DNA of 64,000 bases, from positions 5,047,501 to 5,111,500 of the forward strand of contig NZ_CP033433.1 in NCBI RefSeq assembly GCF_003713065.1. The letters run 5' to 3'. This document shows, one piece after another, positions 4,752 through 22,350 of this stretch; position 1 is the first letter of the stretch, and every line of letters starts with the position of its first letter. The notes under the pieces were generated by a model. It searched no databases. It was not told where the DNA came from and saw only the letters and a list, made by a program, of their open reading frames with translations. The DNA comes from Cohnella candidum (lineage in GTDB: Bacteria > Bacillota > Bacilli > Paenibacillales > Paenibacillaceae). The translations under genes and the position numbers were made by a program.

Positions 4752-4791
4752 GCGCGCGGGACGCAGCGGCAGAGGGGAGGTCGACGGCACG

Positions 4792-5646: not shown

Positions 5647-5673
5647 TTCCAAGTACCGACTGAGGAGGGAATC

Positions 5674-6963
5674 GTGAAAATGGGGACGACGGCAGGGGGA
5701 ACGAGCAGATTGAGGGAGTCCGTCAAACGCATCGTTCGCGAGACGCCGGTGACGGACATGCACACGCATTTGTTCGCGCCCGCGTTCGGCGGGTTGAATT
5801 TGTATAGCCTCGACGATCTGCTCACTTACCACTACTTGACCGCGGAGACGATGCGCTGGTCGGATTTGCCTTATGAGCAGTTCTGGTCGCTGTCCAAGCG
5901 CGGTCAGGCGGAGCATATTTGGCAGCAGCTGTTCACCGCCCATTCGCCGATCAGCGAAGCGACGGGCGGCTTGCTTCAGGTCATGAAGGAACTCGGACTC
6001 GACACTTCCTCGCGGGACTTGGAAACCCATCGTTCCGCCTGGGACGCTTGGGACGCTGGAGCGCATGTGGAGCAAGTGCTGGGCGCGGCCCGCGTGCGCG
6101 ACCTCGTGATGACCAACGATCCGTTCGACGATGCGGAAAGAAAGGTATGGGAAGCGGGCGAAGGCCGGAAAGACGCGCGGTTTCACGCCGCGCTCCGCAC
6201 GGATCCGCTGCTGAACGATTGGCCGGCCGCGGCCAGGAAATTGCCCGAGCTCGGCTATCAGGTTTCCGAGGAATGGTCGGAGGAGACGAAGGCGGAGGTT
6301 CGCCGTTTCCTGCGCGAATGGATCGGCAAGATGGACGCGCTGTACCTGGCCGTCTCCATGCCGGGAGACTTCGTCTATCCGGCCGACGATCACCGCTCCC
6401 GGATGATCGACGAGGTCATGATTCCGGTCTGCCGCGAAGCGGGCATCCCGTTCGCCTTGATGATCGGCGTGCGCCGGGGCGTCAATCCGGGGCTGCGGCT
6501 TGCGGGCGACATGAGCATGCGCTCGGATACCGGCGCGGTGGAAGCGTTGTGCCGCCGTTATCCGGAACAAAAGTTCCTCGTCACGATGCTGGCACGGGAG
6601 AATCAGCACGAGCTGGCGGTGCTGGCCCGCAAATTCCGCAACCTGATGATTTTCGGCTGCTGGTGGTTCCTGCACGTGGAATCGATGATGGAAGAAATGA
6701 CGCGGTTCCGCGTCGAGCTGCTGGGAACCAGCTTCATTCCGCAGCATTCGGATTGCCGGGTGTTCGGCCAGCTCATCTACAAATGGGGCCGCTCGCGGGA
6801 AATCATCGGCCGCGTGCTCGCGGACTCGTACGAACGGCTGGCGGGTACGGGATGGCGGGTGGAGGAAGCGGATATCCGCCGGGACGTCCGGGATCTGTTC
6901 GGCAACAACTTTTGGCGGTTCTTGGGCCGTCCGGAGAAAGCGCTGCAAGAGGAGGAAGCGTAA
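5674..6963 (+). CDS. uxaC: uronate isomerase-like amidohydrolase-superfamily protein
   Basis: This probable uronate isomerase, 429 residues, converts D-glucuronate or D-galacturonate to the keto form. It begins with the metal-site strand TDMHTHLF and contains the distant barrel motifs expected of the family, ending in NNFWRFLG. It resembles the divergent uronate isomerase described from Bacillus halodurans (Bh0493, similar length) more than the longer enterobacterial UxaC; that comparison is from memory. The role is supported by the next two genes, an SDR and mannonate dehydratase. The GTG start has GGAGGG four bases upstream; the ATG at 5680 has better spacing and may be the real one. The stop shares one base with the next start. 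Confidence 0.75.
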   Translation: MKMGTTAGGTSRLRESVKRIVRETPVTDMHTHLFAPAFGGLNLYSLDDLLTYHYLTAETMRWSDLPYEQFWSLSKRGQAEHIWQQLFTAHSPISEATGGLLQVMKELGLDTSSRDLETHRSAWDAWDAGAHVEQVLGAARVRDLVMTNDPFDDAERKVWEAGEGRKDARFHAALRTDPLLNDWPAAARKLPELGYQVSEEWSEETKAEVRRFLREWIGKMDALYLAVSMPGDFVYPADDHRSRMIDEVMIPVCREAGIPFALMIGVRRGVNPGLRLAGDMSMRSDTGAVEALCRRYPEQKFLVTMLARENQHELAVLARKFRNLMIFGCWWFLHVESMMEEMTRFRVELLGTSFIPQHSDCRVFGQLIYKWGRSREIIGRVLADSYERLAGTGWRVEEADIRRDVRDLFGNNFWRFLGRPEKALQEEEA

Positions 6964-7742
6964 TGGCAAAGGGCGGTTTGGATCTGTTCGACCTCACCGG
7001 GCGGACGGCCGCCGTGATCGGGGGCAACTCGACGCTCGGATCGGCGATGGCGGAAGCGTTCGGCGCGTATGGAGCCCGAGTCGCGATCGTCGGCCGGAAC
7101 GCGGAATCGGGTGAAGCCGTTTGCCGGCGGATCGAAGCCGCGGGCGGGGCCGCCCGGTTTTTCGCGGCGGATGCGGTGAAGCGGGAGGACTTGGCGCGCG
7201 TTCTTGCCGAAATCACGGAATGGGGCGGCGGCGTGGACATCCTGATGAATTGTCCCGGCCGCAACAGCGCGACCCCGTTTTTCGAGATCCCGGAGGAAGA
7301 ATGGGACGCCATCATGGACGTCAACGCCAAAAGCGTCATGCTCGCCTGCCAGGTTTTCGGCCGGCACATGGTGGAGCGGGGCAGCGGCAGCATCATTAAT
7401 ATTTCTTCCGTTTCTTCGGGACCGCCGCTTTCCCGCGTATTTACCTACTCCGCGTCGAAAGCGGCGGTGAACAGCATGACGCAGTTTCTCGCGCGGGAGT
7501 TTGCCGCATCCGGCGTTCGGGTAAACGCGATCATCCCGGGTTTCTTCCCGGCGGAGCAGAATCGGAAGATCTTAACGGAGGAACGCGTGCAGTCGATCAT
7601 GACGCACACGCCGATGAAGCGGTTCGGGGAGCCGTCCGAGCTGCAGGGCGCGGCTTTGTTTCTGGCGTCCGGGCGGGCGTCCGGTTTCGTGACGGGGACG
7701 CTGCTTCGGGTGGACGGCGGCTTCGGCGCCATGACGATCTAG
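6963..7742 (+). CDS. uxuB: SDR oxidoreductase, probable D-mannonate (fructuronate) reductase
   Basis: This 259-residue short-chain dehydrogenase has a cofactor loop [11 protein letters not shown] near residues 20-30, the NxPG-type strand MNCPGRN, a catalytic serine in NISSVSS and a YSASK tyrosine-lysine pair, ending in VDGG. The ATG overlaps the uronate isomerase stop (TAATG) and lies behind GAGGAGG. In Bacillus the fructuronate reductase UxuB is an SDR rather than the enterobacterial long-chain type, and the position between isomerase and UxuA fits that step: fructuronate to mannonate with NAD(P)H. Assignment is by family plus context; a related ketose reductase remains possible. Confidence 0.72.
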
Positions 7743-7756
7743 GAGGAGGAACGGCC

Positions 7757-8803
7757 ATGTACATGACTTTCCGCTGGTTCGGGGAGAACGATCCGGTAAC
7801 CCTGAAGAATATCCGGCAAATCCCCGGCATGCACGGCATCGTCAGCGCCGTCTATGACGTGCCCGTGGGAGAAGAATGGCCTTACGGGAAAATCGCCGGG
7901 CTCCGCGACCGCGTGGAAGCGGAAGGCTTGAAGCTCAGCGTCATCGAAAGCGTGCCGGTGCACGAAGACATCAAGCTGGGCTTGCCAACGCGTGACCGCT
8001 ATATCGACAACTACTGCCGCACGCTGAAGAATATCGGTAAGGCGGGCATTCCGGTCGTCTGCTACAATTTCATGCCGATCCTCGACTGGACCCGTTCCGG
8101 CTTGGATTTCGAGTGGGAGGACGGCTCGACTTCCTTGATCTACGAGGAAGCATCCGTCGTGCGGATGAACCCTCGTTCAGGTGATCTTGCACTGCCCGGT
8201 TGGGACACCAGCTACTCGAAGGACGAGATCGGCCGCCTATTCCGGGCTTACGAGTCGGTCGATGAAGAGAAGCTGTGGGAAAACCTCGCCTATTTCATCG
8301 AGCGGATCATTCCCGCGGCGGAGGAAGCCGGCGTGCGGATGGCGATCCATCCCGACGATCCGCCGTGGCCGATTTTCGGGCTGCCGCGGATCATGACGAA
8401 CGCGCGCAATTTCGAGCGGTTCCTCACCTTGTCCGACAGCCCGGCCCACGGCATCTGCTTGTGCAGCGGCTCGCTCGGCGCGGATCCGGCCAACGACGTC
8501 GCCGAGATGGTGCGGACTTTCGGCTCGCAAGGCCGGATCCATTTCGCGCATTTGCGGAACGTGCGGATCGACGGGGAAAAGGATTTTAAGGAAACGGCAC
8601 ACCTGTCTTCTGCCGGTTCGCTCGACATGGGCGCCATCGTGGCCGCCTTGTACGCGGTCGGCTTTGACGGTCCCTTCCGTCCCGACCACGGGCGCATGAT
8701 CTGGGGCGAAATCGGCCGCCCGGGGTACGGCTTGTACGACCGGGCGCTCGGCGCGGTCTATTTGAACGGGCTGTGGGAGGGCATCGCCCGGGCCCGTGCG
8801 TAA
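7757..8803 (+). CDS. uxuA: mannonate dehydratase
   Basis: This is mannonate dehydratase, 348 residues, which removes water from D-mannonate to give 2-keto-3-deoxy-D-gluconate. The start [14 protein letters not shown], the middle [12 protein letters not shown], the metal-site stretch [18 protein letters not shown] and LCSGSLG, and the end [10 protein letters not shown] are all characteristic of UxuA. An AGGAGGAGG site precedes the ATG, 14 bases after the SDR stop. With the two preceding genes it completes conversion of hexuronates to KDG; the KDG kinase and aldolase are not in this window. Confidence 0.93.
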
Positions 8804-8896
8804 TACAGGAATAAGACCGGAGCATTCGTCAACTTCCTGAACGCGATGCCAAATACCCGGTTCCTTCGCCATGCTAGGATAGGAGAAAAAGAGGCG

Positions 8897-9733
8897 ATGG
8901 ACATGAAGGTGGATGCGCACCAGCATTTCTGGAACCTGGACCGGGTCCGCTATCCTTGGTTGGTTCCCGAATATGGCCCGATCTATCGGACATTCGAGGC
9001 TCCCGAATTAGAGCCGCTGCTTAAGTCTGCGGGTATCGACCAAACCGTACTGGTGCAGGCGATGGATTCGAGCGAGGACACGGAGTATATGCTGGAAGTC
9101 GCCTCGACCTTCGACTGGATCGGGGGCGTAGTCGGCTGGGTGCCGCTGGACCGCCCGGACGAAGCCGAGCGTTTGCTTACGCGGTACGCGGCGGAGTTCC
9201 CGAAGTTCAAAGGCGTCCGGCACTTGATCCACGAGGAGAAGGATCCCGATTGGGTCATTCGTCCGGATGTGCTGGAGGGATTGAACGTGCTGGCCGATTT
9301 CGGGCTCACGTTCGACGTCGTCGCGGTGTTCCCGAATCACCTGAAGCATATACCGGTGCTGGCGGAGCGGGTACCGAAGCTGAACATGGTGATCGACCAC
9401 CTGGCCAAACCGCCGATGCGGGAACGGGGCTGGGAGCCCTGGGCAAGCCAATTGGCGGAAGCGGCGGCTTGTCCCCGCGTGTTCGCGAAGCTGTCCGGCT
9501 TGAATACGGCTTCAAATCATGGAGTGGCCGAAGAGTGGCAGCCTTATGTCGATCATGCGCTTGCGGTATTCGGAGCGGAGCGTCTCATGTTCGGCAGCGA
9601 CTGGCCCGTGGCGAACCTGAACGGAGATTATGCCTCGGTGTGGAGAGAGACGCTCAATGTCTTGTCCGCACGCACTCCCAAGGAGGTTGAGGCAATCCTG
9701 GGCGGCACGGCGCAACGGTTTTACCGTTTATAG
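8897..9733 (+). CDS. amidohydrolase-type sugar lactonase, probable L-fuconolactonase
   Basis: This 278-residue metal-dependent hydrolase belongs to the amidohydrolase-2 group that includes L-fuconolactonase and L-rhamnono-lactonase. It begins VDAHQHFWNLDRVRYPWL, keeps HLIHEE and IDHLAKPP, and ends with FGSDWPVANL, the classic final metal-aspartate motif. The ATG at 8897 lies 11 bases after AGGAG; ATG 8903, eight bases after GAGG, is an equal candidate, while the longer upstream frame has no RBS. A 93-base gap separates it from uxuA and a strong terminator follows. It probably supplies the lactone-opening step for the fucose genes that start 1.2 kb downstream, which is inference. Confidence 0.78.
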   Translation: MDMKVDAHQHFWNLDRVRYPWLVPEYGPIYRTFEAPELEPLLKSAGIDQTVLVQAMDSSEDTEYMLEVASTFDWIGGVVGWVPLDRPDEAERLLTRYAAEFPKFKGVRHLIHEEKDPDWVIRPDVLEGLNVLADFGLTFDVVAVFPNHLKHIPVLAERVPKLNMVIDHLAKPPMRERGWEPWASQLAEAAACPRVFAKLSGLNTASNHGVAEEWQPYVDHALAVFGAERLMFGSDWPVANLNGDYASVWRETLNVLSARTPKEVEAILGGTAQRFYRL

Positions 9734-9747
9734 CGATACGTACGGAC

Positions 9748-9775
9748 AAGACTCCTTTGCGGGAGTCTTTTTTTT
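9748..9775 (+). terminator. rho-independent terminator
   Basis: A perfect 8-bp stem (AAGACTCC / GGAGTCTT) with a 6-base loop is followed by a run of T. It ends the hexuronate-lactonase operon and lies between it and the convergent AraC gene. Confidence 0.9.
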
Positions 9776-9803
9776 GGTTGCACCCGATACCGAGCGCTGA
9801 TTT

Positions 9804-9824
9804 AAGTGTGCAATATCGAACTGC
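9804..9824 (+). repeat. dispersed 21-bp intergenic repeat, copy 1
   Basis: A 21-base unit beginning AAGTGTGCAA and ending CGAACTGC recurs at 32935-32955 and 32985-33005 with two or three substitutions in the centre. It lies in the 131-base gap between two convergent genes. Function unknown. Confidence 0.7.
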
Positions 9825-9864
9825 TGCTGCAATCGTCCGGCAATCCTGGTAACCCCGTCCGGCA

Positions 9865-10728
9865 TCACAGCCCGGAAAACGGCCGAAGCCGGTATTGCCT
9901 CGGGCTCACGCCGTAATAGGCGCCGAAATGGCGGGTGAACGGATGGATCGAAGGATAGCCGAGTTTTTCGGCGATGGCCGTCACGCTCAGGTCGCTTTCC
10001 TGAAGGAGGTGGGACGCCCTCTTCATCAGCAGGTTATGCTGGTACGCCTTGGGCGTCAGCCCGGTTTCCCGAAGGAACAGCTCGTGAAAATACGTCCGCT
10101 TCAGTCCGCAGAATTTCCACCACGTCTCTACGGGCTCCCGGCGTTCGGGGAAGGCGTCGAGCTGGGCAAGCAGCCGGACGATCCGGTAATCGCTGGGCTG
10201 CCGGGTATGGAGGGCGTTGTACCAATTGAGGAACCAGGCATAAAGCAGGCTGTTCAGCGCTTCATGGCGGTAGAAAGAAGACTGGTCGAACACCTTCGTC
10301 ATCTGCAGCAGTCCGTCATACAGAATCGGATGGGACTGCAGCGAATAGATACTCGGAAACGCAGCCAGCTCCTCGCATGGTTCTGCCGGCGTCGAAGTGT
10401 GGGGCTGGTAAGGCTCGGGATAGCGGAAAAACGTCCGGTTGAGAGAGACAGGCTGCTCCGTCGGCCATAAGTCGAAATATAGATTCCAGGATGACAGCGG
10501 GTGCGTCGGAGAAATATGGAAGGCGTGCGGCTGCCCCGGACGGAGGAACACGAGCGTTTTGTTCGCGATGGGATAACGCTTGCCGTCGATCTCCATTTCG
10601 CCGGGCCCGTCGGTAAAGAGGTGGATGGCGTATACGTTGCAGGTGCGCAGCCCCTCGTTGGAACTGCCGTCGTACAGATAAGGCATGGAGTCCCCGAGAA
10701 AGGGCTTCAGGTCGGACAAACGTTTCAT
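9865..10728 (-). CDS. AraC-family regulator of the fucose operon (probable)
   Basis: This 287-residue regulator has a cupin-like sensor (EMEIDGKRYPIANKTLVFL, then RPGQPHAFHI near residues 50-75) and a C-terminal double helix-turn-helix ending in YGVSPRQYRL. The start at 10728 is chosen over the longer frame because GGAGG stands 11 bases upstream and the protein then starts just before the sensor domain. It is transcribed divergently from the SDR gene at 10914, and the shared 185-base gap holds three direct repeats suited to AraC-type binding. It most likely responds to L-fucose or a pathway intermediate; this is inferred from arrangement. Confidence 0.85.
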   Translation of the reverse strand: MKRLSDLKPFLGDSMPYLYDGSSNEGLRTCNVYAIHLFTDGPGEMEIDGKRYPIANKTLVFLRPGQPHAFHISPTHPLSSWNLYFDLWPTEQPVSLNRTFFRYPEPYQPHTSTPAEPCEELAAFPSIYSLQSHPILYDGLLQMTKVFDQSSFYRHEALNSLLYAWFLNWYNALHTRQPSDYRIVRLLAQLDAFPERREPVETWWKFCGLKRTYFHELFLRETGLTPKAYQHNLLMKRASHLLQESDLSVTAIAEKLGYPSIHPFTRHFGAYYGVSPRQYRLRPFSGL

Positions 10729-10798
10729 CGAATGGCGCGCCTCCGTTCGCATGCTCAGATGCATTTCACAAATTACCGGATAAAACGTCAAATCAATG

Positions 10799-10872
10799 GA
10801 TGCGGTATCAAATACGACATCCTGATCTGATGATACGATATGGGCAGAGTTTCGGGAAGATGATGCGATATG
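10799..10872. promoter_or_regulatory. three direct repeats, probable AraC operator
   Basis: GATGATACGATATG (10829-10842) and GATGATGCGATATG (10859-10872) differ at one base and are 30 bp apart, about three helical turns. A third, shorter copy GATGCGGTAT occurs at 10799-10808. All lie between the divergent AraC and SDR genes. Direct repeats on one face of the helix are the usual form of AraC-family sites; which promoter they serve is not proven. Confidence 0.6.
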
Positions 10873-10913
10873 CAGCGGATGATTTTGCAACAAGAAATTC
10901 GGGAGGAGTGCGC

Positions 10914-11699
10914 ATGGAGTTCGCAAACCGGACGGTCATCGTCACGGGCGGAGGTTCGGGAATCGGAGAAGCCTGCGCCGAATTGTTCGCCGAGAGGGGC
11001 GCCTCCGTGGTTATTGCCGACCGAAACGAGGCGGAGGGGACCCGAGCTGCCGACAGGATCAACGCCGAGCTTCCGGCTGTAACGGCCGGCGGACCTCCCC
11101 GCGCGTCGGCGATCCGGACGGACGTCTCCCGGGACATGGAAGTCGCCGCGTTGGTGGAGCAGACGCTCTGGACGTACGGCAGGATCGACGTTCTCGTCAA
11201 CAACGCCGCGGTGATATGGCCGCGCTTCTTGGAGGAAATCGGCGAATCCGACTTCGATCGTGTGATCTCTGTCAACCTCAAGGGCGTGTTCCTCATGATC
11301 AAGCATGCGATCCCGCATTTGCGAAGAACACGGGGAGCGATCGTGAATTTGGCGTCGCTGAACGGCCTCGTCGGACAGCGGCAAAACCCGGTTTACGCGG
11401 CGGCCAAAGGCGGCGTCATCGCGATGAGCAAATCGCTGGCGCTGGATTATGCGGCCGATGGGGTCCGCATTAACTGCGTCTGCCCCGCCGGGGTCATGAC
11501 GCCGCTGCTAGAAGAATGGACCCGGCAGCAGGAAGATCCCGCGGCGACCGTGCAGGCTCTGAACGACATGCATCCGTTGGGCAGGCCCGCGACCCCCGAA
11601 GAGATCGCGCAGGCCGTCGCCTATCTGGCGGGAGCGCGATCCGGGTTCGTCACCGGCGTCGCGCTGCCGGTCGACGGGGGCGCTTCGCTCGGCTATTAA
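10914..11699 (+). CDS. SDR dehydrogenase, probable L-fucose dehydrogenase
   Basis: This 261-residue short-chain dehydrogenase has the cofactor loop TGGGSGIGEA at about residues 11-20, NNAAV, a catalytic serine (NLASLNG), YAAAK and a final VDGG. The ATG at 10914 follows GGGAGGAG by five bases; upstream in-frame starts lie in the operator region. It opens an operon with a dehydratase, a second SDR, a FAH hydrolase and a fucosidase. The first SDR of such sets oxidises the free sugar to its lactone with NAD(P)+. The assignment to L-fucose rests on the downstream GH95 enzyme, not on the SDR sequence itself. Confidence 0.75.
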   Translation: MEFANRTVIVTGGGSGIGEACAELFAERGASVVIADRNEAEGTRAADRINAELPAVTAGGPPRASAIRTDVSRDMEVAALVEQTLWTYGRIDVLVNNAAVIWPRFLEEIGESDFDRVISVNLKGVFLMIKHAIPHLRRTRGAIVNLASLNGLVGQRQNPVYAAAKGGVIAMSKSLALDYAADGVRINCVCPAGVMTPLLEEWTRQQEDPAATVQALNDMHPLGRPATPEEIAQAVAYLAGARSGFVTGVALPVDGGASLGY

Positions 11700-11724
11700 T
11701 CCGCATCCGCAAAGGAGAACGACG

Positions 11725-12822
11725 ATGAAAATCACCAAAGTGAAAACGTTCGTGCTTCACGTTCCGATTACCCCGCCGATCACCGATGCCATCAACGTCG
11801 CGACCCATTGGGGGCTGTCCGGCGTTCGGATCTTCACGGACGAAGGCTTCGTCGGCTACGGGTATACGGGCACTTGCGCGCAGGGGGACGAGATGATCGT
11901 CGATACGATCGACCGATACTACGCCCCCGAGCTGATCGGCAAGGATCCGTTCATGGTCAAGGAGATCTGGGATTCGCTGCGGTTCGGCAAAATGCACTGG
12001 ATCGGCAGGGCCGGCGTGACCCACATGGCGCTGGCCGCCGTCGACATCGCTCTGTGGGACATTATGGCGAAGGCATCGAACAAGCCTCTGTGGCAGTACC
12101 TCGGCGGACATAAGAGCAAAGGCATCAAGGCCTACAACACGAACGGCGGGTGGTTGAACTGGAGCAAGGAACGCCTGCTTAAAGACGTGACGGAGATCGT
12201 CGAGCAAGGCTTCACCGGGGTCAAAATCAAAGTGGGCAAACCGGATCCCCGGGAGGATTACGACCGCGTGAAGGCGGTAAGGAAGGCGATCGGGGACGAC
12301 GTCATTTTCATGATCGACGTGAATCAGCAGTGGAACGTCAACACGGCGATGACCTGGGGCAAAAAGCTGGAGGAATTCGACCTGTTCTGGCTGGAAGAGC
12401 CGCTGAATCCCGACGACATCCTCGGCCATAAGAAATTGGCGGACGAGCTGAACGTGCCGATCGCGCTGGGCGAGCACGTGTATACCAAATACGCGTTCCG
12501 CGACTATATCCACCACGGCGCCGTGGAGTATTGCCAGGTCGACGTGACGCGCGTTGCCGGCATTACCGAATGGCTGCAGGTGGCGGGACTGGCGGCGGCA
12601 TATGACGTCCCCGTTTGCCCGCACGTCGGGGACATGGGGCAGATTCACCAGCATCTGGTCGCGGCGACGCAGGGCTCGATCATGCTGGAGTACATTCCGT
12701 GGATCCGGGACATTTTCGTGGAACCGGCCACCGTGCGGAACGGGTTTTACGTGCTGCCCGAGATGCCGGGCGCGTCGACGGAAATCCTGCCCGCCTATTT
12801 CGAGAAATACAGAATCCGTTAA
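11725..12822 (+). CDS. enolase-superfamily acid-sugar dehydratase (probable L-fuconate dehydratase)
   Basis: This enzyme of 365 residues is in the mandelate racemase subgroup. Visible catalytic elements are the K167-x-K169 motif (VKIKVG), metal ligands D198 (MIDVNQ), E224 (LEEP) and E250 (GEHV), and the D273/H300 dyad (VDVTR, CPHV). These have the same spacing as mandelate racemase K164/K166, D195, E221, E247 and D270/H297. Such enzymes dehydrate aldonates to 2-keto-3-deoxy acids. Its neighbours make L-fuconate the likeliest substrate; L-rhamnonate or galactarate cannot be ruled out. AAAGGAG precedes the ATG by seven bases. Confidence 0.85.
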   Translation: MKITKVKTFVLHVPITPPITDAINVATHWGLSGVRIFTDEGFVGYGYTGTCAQGDEMIVDTIDRYYAPELIGKDPFMVKEIWDSLRFGKMHWIGRAGVTHMALAAVDIALWDIMAKASNKPLWQYLGGHKSKGIKAYNTNGGWLNWSKERLLKDVTEIVEQGFTGVKIKVGKPDPREDYDRVKAVRKAIGDDVIFMIDVNQQWNVNTAMTWGKKLEEFDLFWLEEPLNPDDILGHKKLADELNVPIALGEHVYTKYAFRDYIHHGAVEYCQVDVTRVAGITEWLQVAGLAAAYDVPVCPHVGDMGQIHQHLVAATQGSIMLEYIPWIRDIFVEPATVRNGFYVLPEMPGASTEILPAYFEKYRIR

Positions 12823-12843
12823 GCCGGGGAGGGAGACGGACCG

Positions 12844-13617
12844 ATGAGACTCCAAGACAAAACGGCGCTGATCACGGGTGCGGGCTCCGGAATCGGGCGG
12901 GCAGCCGCGGAACGGTTCGCGAAGGAAGGCGCCACGGTCATCGTCAATGACCTGGACGAGAGCAAAGGACGCGAGACCGTGGAGCGGATCGCCTCGTCCG
13001 GAGGGAACGCCTTGTTTCTTCAGGCGGACGTGACCGACGCCGATTCGGTTCAGACGATGATCCGAGAAGCGCTGAAAGCCTGCTCGAAAATCGACGTGCT
13101 GTTCAATAACGCCGGCATCAGCGGGGTGGGCGCCATTCACGAAATCGAACCCGAGGACTGGGACCGGGTCGTCCGCGTCAACCTGCGGGGCGTCTTCCTG
13201 CCGTCCAAATACGTGCTGCCCCATATGATGCAGCGGATGTCGGGAAACGTCATTAACATGTCTTCGTGCATCGCCGAGATCGGTTTGGCGCGCCGCGCCT
13301 CCTATTCGGCGACGAAGGGCGCGGTTCTGGCTCTGACGAAGTCGATGCAGGTGGACTACGCCCCCTACGGCATCCGCGTGAACGCGCTTCTGCCGGGTAC
13401 CATTTTAACGCCGTTCGTCGAGCAATACCTCCGCAACTCTTACGAGGATCCCGAGGCGGCGCTCGCGGCCATCAAATCCAGGCAATTAAGCGGCGACCTC
13501 GGCAAGCCGGAGGACGTGGCGAACGCGGCTTTGTTCCTGGCTTCGGACGAATCGAAATTCATGATGGGCTCCCCGCTCTACGTCGACGGCGGCGTCGTAT
13601 TCGGGAAAAACGCGTAA
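12844..13617 (+). CDS. SDR dehydrogenase, probable 2-keto-3-deoxy-L-fuconate dehydrogenase
   Basis: This 257-residue SDR has TGAGSGIGRA near residues 12-21, NNAGISG, INMSSC, YSATKGA and a VDGG end. It lies 21 bases after the dehydratase and 36 before the FAH hydrolase. In the Xanthomonas-type L-fucose pathway a short-chain dehydrogenase oxidises 2-keto-3-deoxy-L-fuconate to the 2,4-diketo acid, which a FAH-family hydrolase then cleaves; the order here matches. The two SDRs of the operon are different enough to be two separate steps rather than a recent duplication. Confidence 0.75.
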   Translation: MRLQDKTALITGAGSGIGRAAAERFAKEGATVIVNDLDESKGRETVERIASSGGNALFLQADVTDADSVQTMIREALKACSKIDVLFNNAGISGVGAIHEIEPEDWDRVVRVNLRGVFLPSKYVLPHMMQRMSGNVINMSSCIAEIGLARRASYSATKGAVLALTKSMQVDYAPYGIRVNALLPGTILTPFVEQYLRNSYEDPEAALAAIKSRQLSGDLGKPEDVANAALFLASDESKFMMGSPLYVDGGVVFGKNA

Positions 13618-13653
13618 CTGCGCACAACATGCTTAAAAGGGGCGGTTTACGAA

Positions 13654-14553
13654 ATGAAGCTTGTGACGATCGACGGGGACGGCGGCGGCCGCCTCGGCGT
13701 CAAGTGGGACGAGGGAATCCTGGATATCCGGGCTGCGCTTTCAATGGTACCGGATCCGGAAGTGCCGGCGGACGTGATGGCGCTCCTCGAGGGCGGAGAG
13801 ACGGCACTTGCCGCATTGGGGGACTACTTGCAGCGGTTGAAAGTTTCAGGAAATGACTCTCGCTGCCTTCTCCCGGAGGAGGAGGTCATCTTCGGCCCCT
13901 GTGTCACGCGGCCGAACAAAATCGTCTGCGTCGGGTTGAACTACCGGAAACACGCGGCCGAGACGAACGCGGCCATTCCGGCTTTCCCCATTCTGTTCAA
14001 CAAATTCCATAATGCGCTCATCGGCCATCGGAAGGACGTTCCGCTTCCGGAACGGGTAAGTTCGGAAGTCGACTATGAGGCGGAGCTGGCGATCGTGATC
14101 GGCAAAACCGCCAAGTACGTCGAGAAGGAGAACGCCTTGGAGCACGTTTTCGGATATTGCTGCGCGAACGACCTTTCCGCGCGCGATCTGCAAATGCGGA
14201 CGCCTCAGTGGCTGCTGGGCAAGTCATGCGACGGCTTCAGCCCGCTCGGCCCTTATCTGGTCACGGCCGATGAGGTCGGAGACCCGAACGATCTGGGGAT
14301 CCGGTGCGCCGTCAATGGGGAAGTTCGCCAGCGGTCCCGCACGTCGGACATGATTTTCGGCTGCGACGAGATCGTCAGCTACGTTTCCCGGCACATGACG
14401 CTCGTTCCCGGAGACGTCATTCTGACCGGGACGCCGGAAGGAGTCGTGCTCGGGTATCCGAAGGACCGGCGGGTTTATTTGCGGGCGGGCGACGTCGTAA
14501 CCGTCGAAATAGAGAAGCTGGGCAGTCTGACGAACCGAATGATCGGAGAATAG
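13654..14553 (+). CDS. FAH-family hydrolase (2,4-diketo-3-deoxy-L-fuconate hydrolase-like)
   Basis: This 299-residue hydrolase belongs to the fumarylacetoacetate hydrolase / acylpyruvase family. It shows the core PNKIVCVGLNYRKHA (about residues 87-101), the metal-binding EVDYEAELAIVIGK (about 132-145), YCCANDLSARDLQ and the C-terminal GDVILTGTPEGVVLGY. It would split a 2,4-diketo acid into pyruvate and a hydroxy acid (L-lactate in the fucose route). Its place right after the second SDR is the main support for a non-aldolase, non-phosphorylated pathway. The ATG follows AAAAGGGGCGG. Confidence 0.85.
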   Translation: MKLVTIDGDGGGRLGVKWDEGILDIRAALSMVPDPEVPADVMALLEGGETALAALGDYLQRLKVSGNDSRCLLPEEEVIFGPCVTRPNKIVCVGLNYRKHAAETNAAIPAFPILFNKFHNALIGHRKDVPLPERVSSEVDYEAELAIVIGKTAKYVEKENALEHVFGYCCANDLSARDLQMRTPQWLLGKSCDGFSPLGPYLVTADEVGDPNDLGIRCAVNGEVRQRSRTSDMIFGCDEIVSYVSRHMTLVPGDVILTGTPEGVVLGYPKDRRVYLRAGDVVTVEIEKLGSLTNRMIGE

Positions 14554-14563
14554 GAGATGCGGC

Positions 14564-16873
14564 ATGGGAGAGACGAAACTTCGGTATGATGGGCCCGCGG
14601 ACAAATGGGCGCAAGGGCTGCCGGTCGGTAACGGAAGGCTGGGCGCGGTGATATACGGGGGAGCGGATCGCGAAACGTGGAGCGTGACGGAATCGACCTA
14701 CTGGTCCGGCAAACCGGAACGGACCCCCGCCAAGATGAACGGCAAAGCGGATTTGGAGGAGATGAGGCGCTGTTTCTTCGCCGGAGATTATGCACGCGGG
14801 GAAGAATTGGCGGGACAGCTGCTGCAGCCGGAGAAGGGCAATTTCGGGACGAACCTGCCCTTGTGCGCCGTACATCTCACGTTCGGCCATATAGGCGGTA
14901 AGCTGCAACGGGAGCTGGATTTGGAGGATGCGGCGGTCCGCCTTTCCTATGAAGCGGGCGGGACGGCTTACTGCCGCGAAACTTTCGCCACCCATGCGGA
15001 CGGCGTCCTCGTTTCGCGAATCCGGAGCGACGGACCGGACAAGGTTTCGTTCACCCTGCGGCTGGAGGCGGAGACGGAGCGCTTCGAGGCATGGCCGGAT
15101 GGCGATACGCTCGCCTTCAGCGGCCAAGCCACGGAACGAATCCATAGCGACGGGGAATGCGGGGTTTCTTGCCGAGGAGTCGTCATGATAACGGCAAGCG
15201 GGGGAACCGTGGCGATCGGCGGAAACGGCATCGCGGTGCGGAACGCAGAAGAGGCGGTCATCTGGCTGAGCGTCGCCACGGATTACGGCCAAGACGGCGA
15301 GCTTTGGGCGGACGAGGCGGAACGCCGTCTACGCGATGCCGTCGCCAAAGGCTTTGCCCGCGTCAAGGAAGACCATTTGGCGGACTACCGGCCTTTATTC
15401 GGACGAGTGTCGCTCGACTTGGGGGACGCCGGACGGACGGGATTACCGTTGGACCACAGGCTCCGGCTGCTCCGGGAAGACGCCGGCGACGATCCCGGCC
15501 TGTATGAGCTGTTTTTCCAATACGGCAGGTATTTGATGATCGCCGGTTCTCGGGAAGACTCGCCTCTCCCCCTGCATCTGCAAGGAATATGGAACGACGG
15601 CGAAGCCAACCGCATGGCTTGGAGCTGCGACTACCATTTGGACGTCAACACCGAAATGAACTACTATCCGACGGAGGCATGCAATCTGGCGGAAAGCCAT
15701 GTCCCGTTGATGCGGTTCGTGGAGCGGTTGGCCGAAGCCGGCCGGGAAGCCGCGCGCGACTTCTACGGCTCCGAAGGCTGGGTGGCGCACGTGTTCACCA
15801 ACGCATGGGGATTCTCCGCGCCGGGATGGCACTATTCCTGGGGATTAAACGTAACGGGAGGCTTGTGGATCGCGGCCCAACTCCGCGAGCATTACGAATA
15901 CAACCTGGACGGGGTTTTCCTGAAAGAAACGGCGTATCCCGTGCTCAAGGAGGCGGCGCTTTTCTTCCTGGATTACATGACGGTCCATCCGGTCCATGGC
16001 TGGCTCGTCACCGGCCCTTCCAATTCGCCGGAAAACAGCTTTTACGCCGATGCTTCCGCCTCCTCATCCTACGCTTTGTCGATGGGCTCGACGATGGACC
16101 AGCAACTGGTTCGCGACTTGTTCGATTTCTGTCTGTCCGCGGCGGAGCGGCTCAGGGTGGACACGGAGTTTCAAGAGCGGCTGAGGCGGGCCATCGTCCA
16201 GTTGCCGCCCCTTCAGATCGGCCGCAAAGGGCAGCTGCAGGAATGGCTGGAGGATTACGGCGAAGCTCAGCCTGACCACCGGCACCTGGCCCATCTCTGG
16301 GCATTGTACCCCGGCAGCCAAATTACGCCGGAGGAAACGCCGGACCTGGCCGAAGCGGCGAGAGTGACGCTGGACAACCGGATGAGAGGGGAAGGCCTCG
16401 AAGACGTCGAATTCACGCTGGCCTTATTCGCGGCGAGCTACGCCCGTCTCGGGGACGCCGAGAAGGCTAGGGACAGCTTGTCTTATCTCGTCGGCCAGCT
16501 CTGCTTCGATAACCTGCTCACGTATTCCAAGCCGGGCATCGCGGGCGCGGAAACGAATATTTTCGTCGTGGACGGCAATTTCGGCGGCACGTCGGCGATC
16601 GCGGAGATGCTCCTGCAGAGCCGCGCCGGTGACATCCATCTGCTGCCCGCGATGCCGGCGGGATGGCCCACGGGGCGGTTCACGGGGTTGCGGGCCAAAG
16701 GGAACGCCGAAGTATCGGCCGCTTGGGAGAACGGGGAATTGACGGAGGCGGTCATCCGGCCTTTCTCTACGCTGCGCACCCGCTTGCGATACGGCGGCAG
16801 GACAGTCACCCTTGAGCTGGAGCCAGGCCGCGAATACGCGGTGGACCGGGATTTGCGCATCACCGAACGATAG
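14564..16873 (+). CDS. GH95 alpha-L-fucosidase
   Basis: This 769-residue glycoside hydrolase of family 95 has the family opening RYDGPADKWAQGLPVGNGRLG, then YWSGKPER, HLQGIWND, MNYYPTEACNLAESH, WLEDYGEAQPDHRHLAHL and NFGGTSAIAEMLL with LLPAMP near the end. Family members remove alpha-1,2-L-fucose (some alpha-L-galactose) from glycans. There is no signal peptide, so it probably acts inside the cell on imported oligosaccharides. The segment usually N-x-N before T-E-M-N-Y reads D-V-N, which could alter the water-activating pair. It is the last gene of the fucose operon; a terminator follows. Confidence 0.9.
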   Translation: MGETKLRYDGPADKWAQGLPVGNGRLGAVIYGGADRETWSVTESTYWSGKPERTPAKMNGKADLEEMRRCFFAGDYARGEELAGQLLQPEKGNFGTNLPLCAVHLTFGHIGGKLQRELDLEDAAVRLSYEAGGTAYCRETFATHADGVLVSRIRSDGPDKVSFTLRLEAETERFEAWPDGDTLAFSGQATERIHSDGECGVSCRGVVMITASGGTVAIGGNGIAVRNAEEAVIWLSVATDYGQDGELWADEAERRLRDAVAKGFARVKEDHLADYRPLFGRVSLDLGDAGRTGLPLDHRLRLLREDAGDDPGLYELFFQYGRYLMIAGSREDSPLPLHLQGIWNDGEANRMAWSCDYHLDVNTEMNYYPTEACNLAESHVPLMRFVERLAEAGREAARDFYGSEGWVAHVFTNAWGFSAPGWHYSWGLNVTGGLWIAAQLREHYEYNLDGVFLKETAYPVLKEAALFFLDYMTVHPVHGWLVTGPSNSPENSFYADASASSSYALSMGSTMDQQLVRDLFDFCLSAAERLRVDTEFQERLRRAIVQLPPLQIGRKGQLQEWLEDYGEAQPDHRHLAHLWALYPGSQITPEETPDLAEAARVTLDNRMRGEGLEDVEFTLALFAASYARLGDAEKARDSLSYLVGQLCFDNLLTYSKPGIAGAETNIFVVDGNFGGTSAIAEMLLQSRAGDIHLLPAMPAGWPTGRFTGLRAKGNAEVSAAWENGELTEAVIRPFSTLRTRLRYGGRTVTLELEPGREYAVDRDLRITER

Positions 16874-16898
16874 ATTTCAGCCTTAACCTGCAAGGACG

Positions 16899-16939
16899 GG
16901 AAGCGGCTGCGATGCCTCGCATCGCGGCGGCTTCCTTTT
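16899..16939 (+). terminator. rho-independent terminator of the fucose operon
   Basis: A 17-bp stem with one mismatch and one wobble pair (arms begin GGAAGC and end GCTTCC) is followed by TTTT. It lies 26 bases after the fucosidase stop. Confidence 0.8.
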
Positions 16940-17022
16940 GCGGTATTGGGTGCCGACAAGCGGTTTCATGCAAAATACTCATGTTCACGCGCAACGATTT
17001 CATAGATAATAGGAATACGTTT

Positions 17023-17036
17023 TGATAACGCTGTCA
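17023..17036 (+). promoter_or_regulatory. cre-like site upstream of the membrane AraC gene
   Basis: TGATAACGCTGTCA matches the TGWAANCGNTNWCA consensus at all but one fixed position and lies 20 bases before the next start codon. It would place the transporter regulator under CcpA; low to moderate support. Confidence 0.45.
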
Positions 17037-17055
17037 TGGCGGGAGGGGGGCGTTC

Positions 17056-19356
17056 ATGCCGAGACATTCCCGGGTTTTCAGAAGCTTCCTGATTTCCTAT
17101 ATCGTCATTTTGATCATACCGAGCATCGCCGGCTACATGTCCTACCGCACGTCCATTTCCGTGACGCAAAACCTCGCGATCGAGAACAGCGTCACGCAGC
17201 TCCAGAAAAGCAAGGAGATTCTGGAGCGCCGCATGGCCGAGGTCGAAGGCTTCACCAGGCAGCTCGCGATCAATCAGGATTTGAACATTCTCATGAATGA
17301 GAAGAAGTCGGGAGACCAAACAAACGTTTACGGGATTTGGAAAATGATGCGGGACATCCTGACGTTCGGCCAAACGAACGACTTTTTGCAGAACTTTTTC
17401 ATCTACCTCGCCAACTACAACGTGATCCTGACGCCCGGGTCCGCGTATTTCCGGCCCGAGCATTATTACGAGAACTTCCATTACAACGATCTGACGCTCG
17501 CCGAGTGGAAGCAGACGATTCTCGGGAAGACGCACCGGAGCGAGGTCCTGCCGCTGCGTCCGTTCGTTTCCAAAGGAGTGCAAACGGCCGTCCTGACGTA
17601 CATGCAGTCGCTTCCGTTGGACAGCTTCAGCGGGTCGTCTCCGGCGACCGTCGTCGTGCTGATCGACAAGAATACGATCGGGAGCCTGCTGTCGGGCATC
17701 ACCGACCGTTATGGCGGTTGGGCCCACATCAGCGACGGCGAAGGCCGCACCGTCGCCGCGAAGGGCATCGGCGAACCCGACATGGAAGCTTTGGCCGCGG
17801 ACGCGCGCTTCGACAAGGATAAGGTCAGCCAATTTTACGACGACGACCTGGTCATCACCATCCGTTCCGACGCGAGCGGGTGGGTGTACCGGGCGGGTAT
17901 CCCGAGGCAGGTGTTGCTCGAGAACGCCAACAAGATCAAGTCGATTACCTGGACCGTCACCGGCATCGCATTGGGGGTCGGCCTGCTCGTCGGGCTCTTC
18001 CTCGCTTACCGGAACAGCGCTCCGATCAACCGGCTCGTCACCGTCATGAAAGAGCAGTTCGGGACGGACGCCGGCGAGGGGCGCAACGAATACGACTTCC
18101 TTCACGGCAACATTTCCGACATGATCACGAACAACAAGCGGCTGGAGTCCGAGCTTCACCGTCAACTCCCGCTCGTCCGGGACGCATTCCTCAAACGCCT
18201 GATCGCCGGCGAATTCCAATCGCGGGAAGAAATTCTGGCTGCCGCGGCGCAGGCGAATACCGGGATTTACGGCAATTCGGGTTACGTCTGCATTTTGCAA
18301 ATCAACGGCTACTCCGGCATGGACAGCGTCGAAATCCTGAACGAGCTGAACGCGGCCCGTTTGATTCTGAAACAAGCCATGTTCGACCTGGCAGGGTTCC
18401 TGCTGATGACGGATCTGGGATCGGACAAAATCGTGATCGTATTTGCGTCCAAAGAAGCGGAAACGGGCAGCGAGCTTGGAAGAAACGAGATCGGGGGCTT
18501 GCTTCATCAGCTTTCCGAACGCGCCTTCAGCGAATACCGGATTTCCGTTACCGCGGCGCTCGGCGATCGTTTCGCGGCGGAGACGGAAGTCAGCCAATCT
18601 TTCGAGCGGGCGAAAATGACGCTGGAATACGCCGTCAACAGCAACAGGAAGGGCATTTTGTGGTTTGACGAAATCCAGGTCGAAAGCGCCACTTATTACT
18701 ACCCGCTCGACGCGGAGCTGCGGCTGATCGGCACGATCCGCGCGGGAGAGATCGAGGAAGCGAAGCGGATCTTCCAATCGATCATGGTTCAGAATACGGA
18801 GAACCGCGAATTGTCCGTCGAAATGAAGCATCAGCTGGTCGGTGAATTAAAAGGAACGTTCCTGAAGCTGCTGGACCAGAAAACGTTCCTGGAATCGGAT
18901 CTGTTCGAGAGTCTCAAAAACCGGATCATCGGCATACAGGAGACGGAGAAAACCGAGACGATCCAGGCCGAAATCGACGGAGTCATGGAAATCTTGTGCG
19001 GCTTGATCACGAGCAGGAAGAACGACAGCCATACGAGAACGGTCGAGCAAATCAAGCAATTTATCGCGGAAAACTATTCGTATTCCGAGCTTACGCTTTA
19101 CCGGGTGGCCGAGCAGGTCGAACGGCCGGAGAAATACATCTCCCAACTGTTCAAGGAAGTCACCGGGATGAATTTGTCCGACCATCTGGAGAAAGTCAGA
19201 ATGGATCACGCCGTCCGGCTGCTACGGCAGAACGCCTATACGGTCGACGAAATTTCGATGAAGGTCGGCTATAACAGCTCGCATTCCTTCCGGAGAGCAT
19301 TCAAGCGGGTAACCGGGGTATCCCCCAGCTCGTACCGCCAAACCGAGGAAGATTGA
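17056..19356 (+). CDS. membrane-bound AraC-family regulator of sugar uptake
   Basis: This 766-residue regulator has one N-terminal membrane helix (about residues 11-28), a large external sensor region, a second helix at about 297-318 (WTVTGIALGVGLLVGLFL), an internal linker domain with a degenerate nucleotide-cyclase-like look, and a C-terminal AraC double helix-turn-helix (about 665-763) ending in VTGVSPSSYRQ. Such proteins are common in Paenibacillus next to Lpl-type sugar ABC transporters and combine sensing and DNA binding. The ATG lies behind GGAGGGGGG. It is followed after 15 bases by a solute-binding protein gene, so it probably senses the sugar carried by that transporter. Confidence 0.88.
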   Translation: MPRHSRVFRSFLISYIVILIIPSIAGYMSYRTSISVTQNLAIENSVTQLQKSKEILERRMAEVEGFTRQLAINQDLNILMNEKKSGDQTNVYGIWKMMRDILTFGQTNDFLQNFFIYLANYNVILTPGSAYFRPEHYYENFHYNDLTLAEWKQTILGKTHRSEVLPLRPFVSKGVQTAVLTYMQSLPLDSFSGSSPATVVVLIDKNTIGSLLSGITDRYGGWAHISDGEGRTVAAKGIGEPDMEALAADARFDKDKVSQFYDDDLVITIRSDASGWVYRAGIPRQVLLENANKIKSITWTVTGIALGVGLLVGLFLAYRNSAPINRLVTVMKEQFGTDAGEGRNEYDFLHGNISDMITNNKRLESELHRQLPLVRDAFLKRLIAGEFQSREEILAAAAQANTGIYGNSGYVCILQINGYSGMDSVEILNELNAARLILKQAMFDLAGFLLMTDLGSDKIVIVFASKEAETGSELGRNEIGGLLHQLSERAFSEYRISVTAALGDRFAAETEVSQSFERAKMTLEYAVNSNRKGILWFDEIQVESATYYYPLDAELRLIGTIRAGEIEEAKRIFQSIMVQNTENRELSVEMKHQLVGELKGTFLKLLDQKTFLESDLFESLKNRIIGIQETEKTETIQAEIDGVMEILCGLITSRKNDSHTRTVEQIKQFIAENYSYSELTLYRVAEQVERPEKYISQLFKEVTGMNLSDHLEKVRMDHAVRLLRQNAYTVDEISMKVGYNSSHSFRRAFKRVTGVSPSSYRQTEED

Positions 19357-19371
19357 AAGGAGGGTTTCGCG

Positions 19372-21018
19372 TTGAAAAAGGCTTCAAGCATCCTTCTTAT
19401 CGCCGTCCTATTCAGCGTGTTTCTTTCGGCTTGCTCCTCAAGGAAGAATGCGGTCCCGCCTTCCCCCAGCCCGATCGAGATCAGCGTCTTCGCGCAGCAG
19501 GATGCGACTCAGGATTTGAAGACAAATGAGTTCACGAGGCTTCTGGAGAATAAATTCGGCGTGAAGTTCGACTGGGAGCTGGTTCCCACGGAAGGCGCCA
19601 AAGAAAAGAGGCAAATCTCCATGGCGAGCGGGAAATATCCCGACGCTTATATCCTGACGAGCTTTGTCGATCAATTCTCGCAGGCGGACGTTCTCCGGTA
19701 CGGGAAACAAGGGGTTTTCTATCCGTTGAACGATTTGATCGACAAATACGCTCCTCATATTAAAGCAGCCATGGAGAGCAACGCCGATCTCCGGGCTTTA
19801 AGTACGGCCCCGGACGGCAACATTTACGGTCTTGTCGGTTACAGCGAGTGCTATCACTGCTCCTATCCGAACAAGATGTGGCTGAACACCGCTTGGCTGA
19901 AAAAGCTCCACCTGGCAATGCCCGTGACGACCGAGGATTTCCGGTCGGTGCTCCGGGCGTTCAAGAACCGTGATCCGAACGGAAACGGCATCGCGGACGA
20001 AATTCCGCTCAGCGGATCCACCGAGGACTTCGGGGTGCGCGTCATTCCCTATTTGATGAACGGATTCATCTATGATGACGATCGTACCTACCTGACGATG
20101 AACGGCGGGAAAGCGGGATTGGCTCCGGATAAGGAGGAGTGGAGGGAAGGGCTGCGGTACATCAAGTCCCTCTATGACGAAGACTTGATCGATCCGGGCG
20201 CCTTCACGCAGAGCGCGGACGTCTTCCGGAAAATCGGGGAAAACGAGAACGCGCAAATTCTGGGCGCGGGAGCGGCCATGCATCCGGACATCTTCGTCGA
20301 TACGGGACCCGGTAACCGCCGGGGAAGCGACTATAACCCGCTGCCCCCGCTGAAGGGACCGCATGCCGCTTATTCCGTTTTCTATGAATCCGGCATTAAT
20401 TCCGGCGCCAAATTCGTCATTACCGATAAGGCCAGCGAGGAAGCGAGAATCGCGCTGATCAAGATCGCCGACTACATGTATACGCCGGAAGGACAGGCCA
20501 ATGCGGAAGTCGGCAAAGAAGGCGTGGACTGGAGGAGACCGGCGGCGGGCGAGAATGCGCTCGGTCCGGACAGCACGCCGGAATTCACGCGAATTCCCGT
20601 CAAGGCAGGGGAGAAGCCTCACAATACGGCGTGGGGAGGCATGGGACATTTCTACATGCCCAGGGAATACCGGGACAGCTGGACGCAGGGCATGGACATT
20701 TACGCGCCGGACGGTTATGAACGCAGACTATACGAAGCTACTAAGCTGTACGACGGTACGCAGCCGAAGGAAGTTTACCCGATCTGGAGCGTATGGATCG
20801 ACGCAGCGGCTGCGGACGAAGAGAACATTTTGCAGACGAACATCAAAAACTACGTCGATGAGAGCGCGGTTCAGTTCATCACGGGGGACAAAGATTTAAA
20901 CAAGGACTGGGATACCTACTTACAAGGCCTGAAAACGCTCGGGTCGGCACGTTATCTCGAGATCATGCAGCGAGCGTATGACGATTGGGCTTCCCTAAAC
21001 GGCTCGGAACATCCATGA
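19372..21018 (+). CDS. sugar ABC transporter solute-binding lipoprotein 1
   Basis: This 548-residue extracellular binding protein has a lipoprotein signal peptide (lysine pair, hydrophobic run, lipobox LSAC at residues 18-21). It is of the LplA type: EKRQISMASGKYPDAYI and LYDEDLIDPGAFTQ are conserved in the paralogue at 23351. A TTG start eight bases after AAAGGAGG is the only good start. It is transcribed with the membrane AraC regulator and is separated from the permeases by a strong terminator, so its level can differ from theirs. The ligand is unknown; context favours an oligosaccharide carrying galactose or fucose. Confidence 0.88.
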   Translation: MKKASSILLIAVLFSVFLSACSSRKNAVPPSPSPIEISVFAQQDATQDLKTNEFTRLLENKFGVKFDWELVPTEGAKEKRQISMASGKYPDAYILTSFVDQFSQADVLRYGKQGVFYPLNDLIDKYAPHIKAAMESNADLRALSTAPDGNIYGLVGYSECYHCSYPNKMWLNTAWLKKLHLAMPVTTEDFRSVLRAFKNRDPNGNGIADEIPLSGSTEDFGVRVIPYLMNGFIYDDDRTYLTMNGGKAGLAPDKEEWREGLRYIKSLYDEDLIDPGAFTQSADVFRKIGENENAQILGAGAAMHPDIFVDTGPGNRRGSDYNPLPPLKGPHAAYSVFYESGINSGAKFVITDKASEEARIALIKIADYMYTPEGQANAEVGKEGVDWRRPAAGENALGPDSTPEFTRIPVKAGEKPHNTAWGGMGHFYMPREYRDSWTQGMDIYAPDGYERRLYEATKLYDGTQPKEVYPIWSVWIDAAAADEENILQTNIKNYVDESAVQFITGDKDLNKDWDTYLQGLKTLGSARYLEIMQRAYDDWASLNGSEHP

Positions 21019-21133
21019 AATGAACGGTTTGCTTCGCCGCCTGGTTCCGAGTTCCGGAATCCGGCGGTTACTTGCGTTTAGGGGACCTTTCAAAAAATCG
21101 AACATCGGGACGAATGGCATGGAACCCGCACAG

Positions 21134-21160
21134 CCGACCGCAGCCGCGGTCGGTTTTTTT
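21134..21160 (+). terminator. rho-independent terminator
   Basis: A perfect 8-bp GC-rich stem (CCGACCGC / GCGGTCGG) with a 4-base loop is followed by seven T. It separates binding protein 1 from the permease operon. The surrounding 393-base gap holds no convincing gene; a 140-codon open frame there has no RBS and lacks recognisable content. Confidence 0.92.
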
Positions 21161-21363
21161 CGTTCTCCGCAACAAAGCCCTCCTCATCGCACCGATTCTG
21201 CCCGGTATCGCGAAACCCCGACGTCTCTCGGTTTTCCGCCACCCACAAGCCGAAATGTCCGCCCGCCGGACAAATGGCCCCCCCGAAATCGGGGAAACTG
21301 TACGCAAAACAACGTAATTGTACCTACCCCGAAACGGCGGGTTTCCCCTAAGATCGGTCGTAA

Positions 21364-21377: not shown

Positions 21378-21411
21378 CATCAAGAATCGCAAATATGCAG
21401 GGGGGATTGTA

Positions 21412-22335: not shown

Positions 22336-22350
22336 AAGAGGAGTGTTTTC

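Follow-up and report, generated by a model that had tools for sequence, protein, structure and literature searches.

A cluster of putative sugar-catabolic genes was examined in the 5.29 Mb, single-contig genome of Cohnella candidum. The window, meaning the whole stretch of DNA analysed, comprises 64,000 nucleotides (bases 5047501-5111500), and the cluster starts at its position 8897. An earlier note on this DNA had listed the genes between 8897 and 16873, and every one of them was found in its place and in the family given. The features are as follows (SDR, short-chain dehydrogenase/reductase).

8897-9733, forward strand: lactonase of the COG3618/Amidohydro_2 type, probable L-fucono-lactonase (NF052480, PDB 4dlf)
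9748-9769, forward strand: hairpin resembling an intrinsic terminator, nine pairs followed by a T-run (terminator scan)
9865-10728, reverse strand: AraC-family regulator, transcribed away from the SDR1 unit
10914-11699, forward strand: SDR1, probable L-fucose 1-dehydrogenase (NF052481, PDB 7djs)
11725-12822, forward strand: dehydratase of the mandelate racemase (MR) subgroup, probable L-fuconate dehydratase (barrel alignment to Xanthomonas campestris FucD)
12844-13617, forward strand: SDR2, type-2 L-2-keto-3-deoxyfuconate 4-dehydrogenase (L-KDFDH) by its signature (R-T-Y-R)
13654-14553, forward strand: FAH-family hydrolase, probable 2,4-diketo-3-deoxy-L-fuconate hydrolase (NF053535, PDB 8gsr)
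14564-16873, forward strand: GH95 glycosidase, probable alpha-L-fucosidase (PF22124, 2rdy)
16906-16928, forward strand: terminator-like hairpin 3' of the GH95 gene (terminator scan)

The start of the AraC gene was chosen by resemblance to its orthologue in a related locus (L039); the longest open reading frame (ORF) extends to 10926. A GGAGGAG-like ribosome site lies immediately 5' of SDR1.

Together these genes provide candidates for every step of route 3, the dehydrogenase/hydrolase form of non-phosphorylative sugar catabolism: an aldose dehydrogenase, a lactonase, an acid dehydratase, a 4-dehydrogenase and a diketo-acid hydrolase. As the earlier note proposed, the cluster very probably encodes such a pathway for L-fucose, a sugar called on the basis of the dehydratase active site, a stereo-diagnostic signature in SDR2, fucosidase-family neighbours and genome-wide co-occurrence. 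In the scheme suggested by gene families, active-site residues, gene order in relatives and co-occurrence, the substrates and products are predicted ones, as are induction by fucose, the import route and the linkage cleaved by GH95. The neighbouring ABC system would bring in a fucosylated oligosaccharide, from which cytoplasmic GH95 would free L-fucose. SDR1 would oxidize L-fucose to L-fuconolactone, whose ring would be opened by the COG3618 lactonase encoded in the upstream unit, and the MR-type enzyme would convert L-fuconate to 2-keto-3-deoxy-L-fuconate. SDR2 would oxidize C4 of this compound with NAD+, and the FAH-family enzyme would cleave the resulting diketo acid to pyruvate and L-lactate.

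The main argument against L-rhamnose and for L-fucose or L-galactose comes from SDR2. In the part of their paper used here (PMC11199699), Akagashi and colleagues describe an arginine pattern through which L-KDFDH recognizes the substrate carboxylate. A Paenibacillus ehimensis protein with the R-T-Y-R form of this pattern ('type 2', near PDB 4DQX), purified in 2024, oxidizes L-2-keto-3-deoxyfuconate (L-KDF) with a kcat/Km of 2520 per min per mM. According to the same text, L-KDFDH acts on 4(S)-hydroxy acids and prefers L-KDF, followed by L-2-keto-3-deoxygalactonate (5.3-fold lower) and D-2-keto-3-deoxypentonate (12-fold lower). SDR2 carries the type-2 pattern (RASY, then T, Y nine residues further, and RQ) together with the Ser-Tyr-Lys triad. 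The four positions, 148/183/192/214 in the Herbaspirillum huttiense enzyme, were located by motif spacing rather than by full alignment to that sequence. PDB 4dqx is the second-best structural match of SDR2. Across 29 distinct sequences from related loci (at least 60% identity, window copy included; seven failing the pattern were judged by eye), the first Arg and the Thr were present in all 29; 26 had the Tyr and three a Phe instead, and 28 had RQL, the remaining one being truncated. A narrower first version of the pattern had matched 28 of 36 ORFs, duplicates counted. If the signature transfers, it and the 4(S) preference therefore argue against L-rhamnose and for L-fucose or L-galactose.

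A route 3 pathway for L-rhamnose would share its diketo intermediate with the fucose route (PMC11199699, in the part consulted), and the top model for the FAH-family enzyme is 2,4-didehydro-3-deoxy-L-rhamnonate hydrolase. However, the 4-dehydrogenase of the rhamnose route, L-KDRDH, is reported there to prefer the reverse configuration at C4 and proposed to carry its basic residues at other positions, which does not fit the type-2 pattern of SDR2. A pentose pathway, leading from D-arabinose or D-xylose to pyruvate and glycolate, would agree with the acceptance of D-2-keto-3-deoxypentonate by L-KDFDH and with an L-fucose dehydrogenase of dual D-arabinose specificity described in PMC6336799 (also used in part). 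The fucosidase-family neighbours speak against it, with no search having been aimed at pentosidase genes, and we consider it very unlikely.

The dehydratase (365 residues, MR_MLE_N and MR_MLE_C domains) has the features of an MR-subgroup acid-sugar dehydratase: the MR_MLE fold, three metal acids, a KxK motif (K167/K169) and an Asp-His dyad (D273/H300). The last two had been picked out in the earlier note, and alignment to the L-fuconate dehydratase structure bore them out. Within the barrel, identity to X. campestris FucD is 39% (89/226), and 16 of 17 mapped FucD positions are kept, including all nine that we take to have catalytic, metal-binding or substrate-binding roles (K218/K220, D248, N250, E274, E301, D324, H351 and E382). 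The others kept are Y188, T190, W194, L195, Q251, W253 and H302; T189 is replaced by Asn. When solved relatives were ranked by the barrel only, 3tj4 (221 bits) was followed by L-fuconate dehydratase (172.7), talarate/galactarate dehydratase (156), 3,6-anhydro-L-galactonate cycloisomerase (144.5) and, at a wide distance, rhamnonate dehydratase (73). Among these barrel matches, FucD is the closest structure whose substrate is named, and its 173 bits against 73 for rhamnonate dehydratase are a further point against L-rhamnose.

The cluster recurs in related bacteria. The loci compared are the best 80 of 353 relatives in named genomes; this sample leans to close relatives, includes some short contigs and overlaps in species with the 394 genomes described below. 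Within 8 kb of the dehydratase gene, SDR1 was found in 53 loci, SDR2 in 22, FAH in 22, these three together in 21 and a COG3618 lactonase in 10; all five enzymes were present in five (L037, L056, L058, L068 and L097). A search for the same gene order in relatives, proposed in the earlier note, gave the complete order AraC (reverse strand), SDR1, dehydratase, SDR2, FAH, GH95 and Cache-HTH (HTH, helix-turn-helix) in six of the 80, with AraC in the same place and orientation. In these six the dehydratase is 88-92% identical to that of the window, compared with 57-81% for its neighbours, the loci having been chosen by dehydratase similarity. The window lactonase is 70% identical to the gene directly 3' of the dehydratase in L056 and L058 and 35-39% identical in the other eight loci with a COG3618 lactonase. 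The two close cases tie it to the pathway although it lies in the neighbouring unit.

Fucosidase families are frequent near the dehydratase, GH95 occurring within 8 kb in 20 of the 80 loci, GH29 in 13 and either in 32. The GH29 assignment comes from a Pfam match of one representative (298 bits), to which 12 of the 13, itself included, are at least 74% identical. No rhamnosidase domain occurred among the 25 commonest of 103 Pfam families in 34 long unassigned neighbours (34 of the 36 listed with at least 680 residues, out of 173), single cases being possible. With this, the SDR2 signature and the barrel scores on the other side, L-rhamnose is disfavoured and the least probable of the sugars considered.

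Genome-wide, the dehydratase clade (E ≤ 1e-150) was present in 75 of 394 genomes of the family Paenibacillaceae, and SDR2 (E ≤ 1e-90) in 73 of these 75 against 49 of the 319 others (Fisher P = 1.4e-43, not corrected for relatedness). FAH was found in 75 of the 75 and a COG3618 relative in 71, 13 of the 75 having one at 60% identity or more; for these two, only the 75 genomes were searched and there is no background rate. Such genome-wide co-occurrence implies that the partners are often encoded elsewhere in the genome.

The earlier note had expected the route to stand in for the isomerase/kinase/aldolase route, and this expectation failed. L-fucose isomerase was found more often where the dehydratase is present (67 of 75 genomes) than in the remaining genomes (199 of 319). 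In addition, the C. candidum genome itself holds an apparently complete phosphorylating operon of the fucI-aldolase-kinase-fucU type (L114, G000:C1:2129000-2145000). Absence or mutual exclusion of the isomerase route was therefore rejected. That operon encodes an L-fucose isomerase (1099 bits, cut-off 775), a class II aldolase (PF00596, 158.5 bits, over the cut-off), a rhamnulokinase-like kinase (480 bits, cut-off 528), an L-fucose-mutarotase-like protein (137.8 bits, cut-off 141) and, by eye, a LacI-like regulator. A second L-fucose isomerase gene is paired with ribulokinase (L115, G000:C1:2893000-2909000). In Paenibacillaceae, the oxidative and the isomerase route for fucose are thus commonly encoded in one genome. 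At 5000-21000 of the window no L-fucose mutarotase was recognized by eye among ORFs of at least 90 amino acids, not all of them library-checked; the genome has a FucU-like gene at another place.

The same genome also contains a second route-3-like cluster (L123:5041-12325, G000:C1:1521040-1528324), consisting of a GH36-like gene, an MR-type dehydratase, an SDR, a zinc-type dehydrogenase (by eye), DUF4432 and FAH. Its dehydratase is 31% and its FAH protein 63% identical to those of the window.

The glycosidase is a GH95 member by PF22124 (492 bits, over the cut-off) and by its SPEN and DGNFG motifs, which hold the general-acid Glu and the activating Asp; it matched 2rdy with 465 bits. No signal peptide is evident by eye, and for this reason it probably acts on imported oligosaccharide. 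AfcA and BACOVA_03438 are reported to use an Asn pair as catalytic base (PMC4491172 and PMC10154630, both consulted in part). The first Asn of the AfcA pair (N421/N423) is Asp in the window enzyme; Asp is also aligned there in 8zbv, named an alpha-L-fucosidase, and Asn in FucOB. The window motif reads YHLDVN, and HLD[VI]N occurred in 27 of 27 orthologue ORFs of at least 57% identity (17 from named loci and 10 from another locus set that partly repeats them). The window enzyme and these ORFs form a GH95 clade in which Asp replaces the first catalytic Asn (HxDxN).

Family GH95 includes a proven alpha-L-galactosidase (PMC4491172), and the main rival to L-fucose is that the enzymes mainly serve L-galactose, with GH95 acting as an alpha-L-galactosidase and pyruvate and L-glycerate as products. 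This would agree with the rank of L-2-keto-3-deoxygalactonate as second-best substrate of L-KDFDH, and fucose already has the fucI route, whose isomerase is commoner where the dehydratase is present. On the other hand, GH29, a fucosidase family, lies within 8 kb of the dehydratase in the 13 loci mentioned, and in a sister genus (L126) the SDR2-FAH pair adjoins a fucose-mutarotase-like gene. The window GH95 also has His where the L-galactosidase has Thr, though this position, once proposed to discriminate between fucose and L-galactose, does not determine specificity according to a later report (PMC8245568, in the part consulted). It was accordingly dropped as a test of the sugar, and because of that report GH95 alone cannot settle the matter. 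A pathway mainly for L-galactose seems unlikely overall. Of the two alternatives named in the earlier note, L-galactose thus stands as the principal one, and L-rhamnose lost ground to the SDR2 signature and the barrel scores.

Several points besides the L-galactosidases of GH95 weigh against an L-fucose pathway. With the fucI operon already present, a second fucose route would be redundant. Three enzymes score below the cut-offs of the models for their proposed reactions: the lactonase for L-fucono-1,5-lactonase (NF052480, 193.9 vs 400 bits), SDR1 for L-fucose dehydrogenase (NF052481, 182.1 vs 300 bits) and FAH for 2,4-didehydro-3-deoxy-L-rhamnonate hydrolase (NF053535, 234.7 vs 500 bits). Among the 25 models listed for each of SDR1 and SDR2, a general 'glucose 1-dehydrogenase' subfamily model is the only one whose cut-off is reached. 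SDR2, like its L126 orthologue, has Val after DGG, the guessed site of the methyl-contacting Trp252 of the H. huttiense enzyme. The dehydratase reaches no NCBIfam cut-off, its best model being talarate/galactarate dehydratase (274 of 500 bits). When whole proteins are ranked, 3tj4 (371 bits) is followed by 3,6-anhydro-L-galactonate cycloisomerase (228), talarate/galactarate dehydratase (212) and only then FucD (206), so that the rank of L-fuconate dehydratase varies with the stretch compared. No function was found in the literature for 3tj4/4h19, the text matches listed being unrelated. Three inspected relatives of 46-50% identity (3 of 284 records) lie on proteobacterial plasmids and show no fucose genes, two of them being near TRAP transporters. 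Finally, 21 of the 80 loci lack any scored partner in the stretch examined; 11 of these hold a gene of a GntR-type cluster, whose representative is GntR/FCD by Pfam.

Matches to solved structures were obtained for the same enzymes: the lactonase with 4dlf (121.5 bits), FAH with 8gsr (LRA6, 194 bits) and SDR1 with 7djs as the best match, followed by 17-beta-HSD14 chains. The enolase-superfamily protein 3tj4/4h19, which we take to be from Agrobacterium, is the closest solved structure to the dehydratase. Transfer of a function from it was dropped, as no paper on its function was found. The plasmid relatives were likewise set aside as context evidence; they lie in other gene contexts, which counts against simple transfer.

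The non-phosphorylative L-fucose pathway is described, in the literature as far as consulted, from Xanthomonas, Burkholderia, Herbaspirillum and Campylobacter, and in Paenibacillus one P. ehimensis enzyme was tied to it by gene context in 2024 (PMC11199699). That enzyme, PEH01S_RS21285, comes from a related bacterium and shares the R-T-Y-R signature with SDR2; it was the one enzyme purified in that work. As an enzyme of the same type has been purified from P. ehimensis, the route is not new for the family and the cluster is largely already explained. No literature joining Cohnella, L-fucose and fucosidase was found in a search that left most subscription-journal papers outside. The X. campestris pathway (XCC4067; XCC4069, FucD) agrees with that proposed here in reaction order, in the catalytic residues of an MR-subgroup dehydratase and in having an SDR 4-dehydrogenase; the superfamilies of the other steps also match those known for the pathway (Burkholderia lactonase, LRA6/FucG-type hydrolase). 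In contrast, the window dehydratase has 365 rather than about 441 residues and is not orthologous to FucD, SDR2 is of type 2 instead of type 1, and the cluster has no mutarotase recognizable by eye.

The element that may be new is the dehydratase. Being shorter and closer to 3tj4, it falls outside the FucD/ENOSF1 type, whose members have about 440 residues and are orthologous to XCC4069. In databases, the named members of its clade carry just the labels 'mandelate racemase/muconate lactonizing enzyme' or 'epimerase-like' protein. Different genera may use unrelated proteins for the dehydratase step. From the 49 genomes with SDR2 and without the window-type dehydratase, loci were taken from eight. 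In four of the eight (L125, L126, L127 and L129) SDR2-FAH shares its stretch with a GarD/UxaA-like dehydratase gene, assigned by Pfam in L126 (PF04295/PF20629) and by sequence resemblance in the other three. In L124, L128, L130 and L131 none was seen among the ORFs listed; other sugar genes occur in L124 and L131. L126 holds an SDR2-FAH pair with the same signature as that of the window, together with the mutarotase-like (FucU-like) gene and a LacI-like gene, and differs from the window cluster in the protein family of its dehydratase. A fucose gene thus accompanies the SDR2-FAH pair in one more setting, and the GarD/UxaA-type protein is a candidate for a second type of L-fuconate dehydratase in the family. 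Strict exclusion between the two types does not hold, since two of the 34 long proteins encoded near the MR-type dehydratase also have a GarD/UxaA domain.

On balance we favour the view that the 365-residue protein represents an L-fuconate dehydratase clade of its own within the MR subgroup, strongly conserved and apart from the FucD/ENOSF1 and UxaA types. The fucose route would then have been built at least twice in Paenibacillaceae with different dehydratases, and many species would run it beside fucI, perhaps using the two on different fucosylated glycans or under different oxygen supply. For the dehydratase clade, found in 75 of the family genomes, this provides an evidence-based annotation as L-fucose or L-fucose/L-galactose enzymes.

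The genes are probably organized as two units, one of uronate genes plus the lactonase and one of SDR1, dehydratase, SDR2, FAH and GH95, and the single operon suggested in the earlier note is doubtful. This arrangement is indicated by the hairpin with T-run 3' of the lactonase (9748-9769), by AraC on the opposite strand and by the lactonase being co-directional with the uronate cluster, which it closes, starting 93 bases after UxuA; the second unit ends at the other hairpin (16906-16928). The terminator scan gave 14 sites in total against 10.7 ± 3.2 in shuffled sequences, no significant excess, and it is the position of the hairpins rather than their count that matters. The flanking genes on either side are the following.

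5674-6963, forward strand: BH0493-like uronate isomerase (503 bits vs PDB BH0493)
6960-7742, forward strand: SDR resembling mannonate oxidoreductase (NF006132, 260.6 bits, below the cut-off of 281)
7757-8803, forward strand: UxuA mannonate dehydratase (PF03786, 493 bits)
within 17056-25048, forward strand: HTH regulator with a weak Cache-domain match (below cut-off; conserved neighbour)
19372-21018, forward strand: solute-binding protein (conserved neighbour)
21412-22335 and 22351-23250, forward strand: ABC permease genes (conserved neighbours)
23309-25048, forward strand: second probable solute-binding lipoprotein (by eye only; conserved neighbour)

The uronate isomerase had no Pfam or NCBIfam match at E ≤ 0.001 despite its score against the BH0493 structure. 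At 1673-5646 of the window stand an IolE-type gene, two Gfo/Idh/MocA genes and an AraC gene; in another genus (L128:7771-13882), relatives of these (46-70% identity) are neighbours of SDR2 and an IclR-like gene, an arrangement that hints at a glycan containing both fucose and uronate.

Downstream of the transport genes, 25124-31183 encodes a protein of 1629 residues with a secreted-looking start and matches to Melibiase_2 (GH27-like), six CBM_X2 and CE2_N, followed by a GDSL/SGNH esterase. In L102, L104 and L109, relatives of the large protein (same BLAST cluster, Pfam check on L102) are encoded close to the dehydratase.

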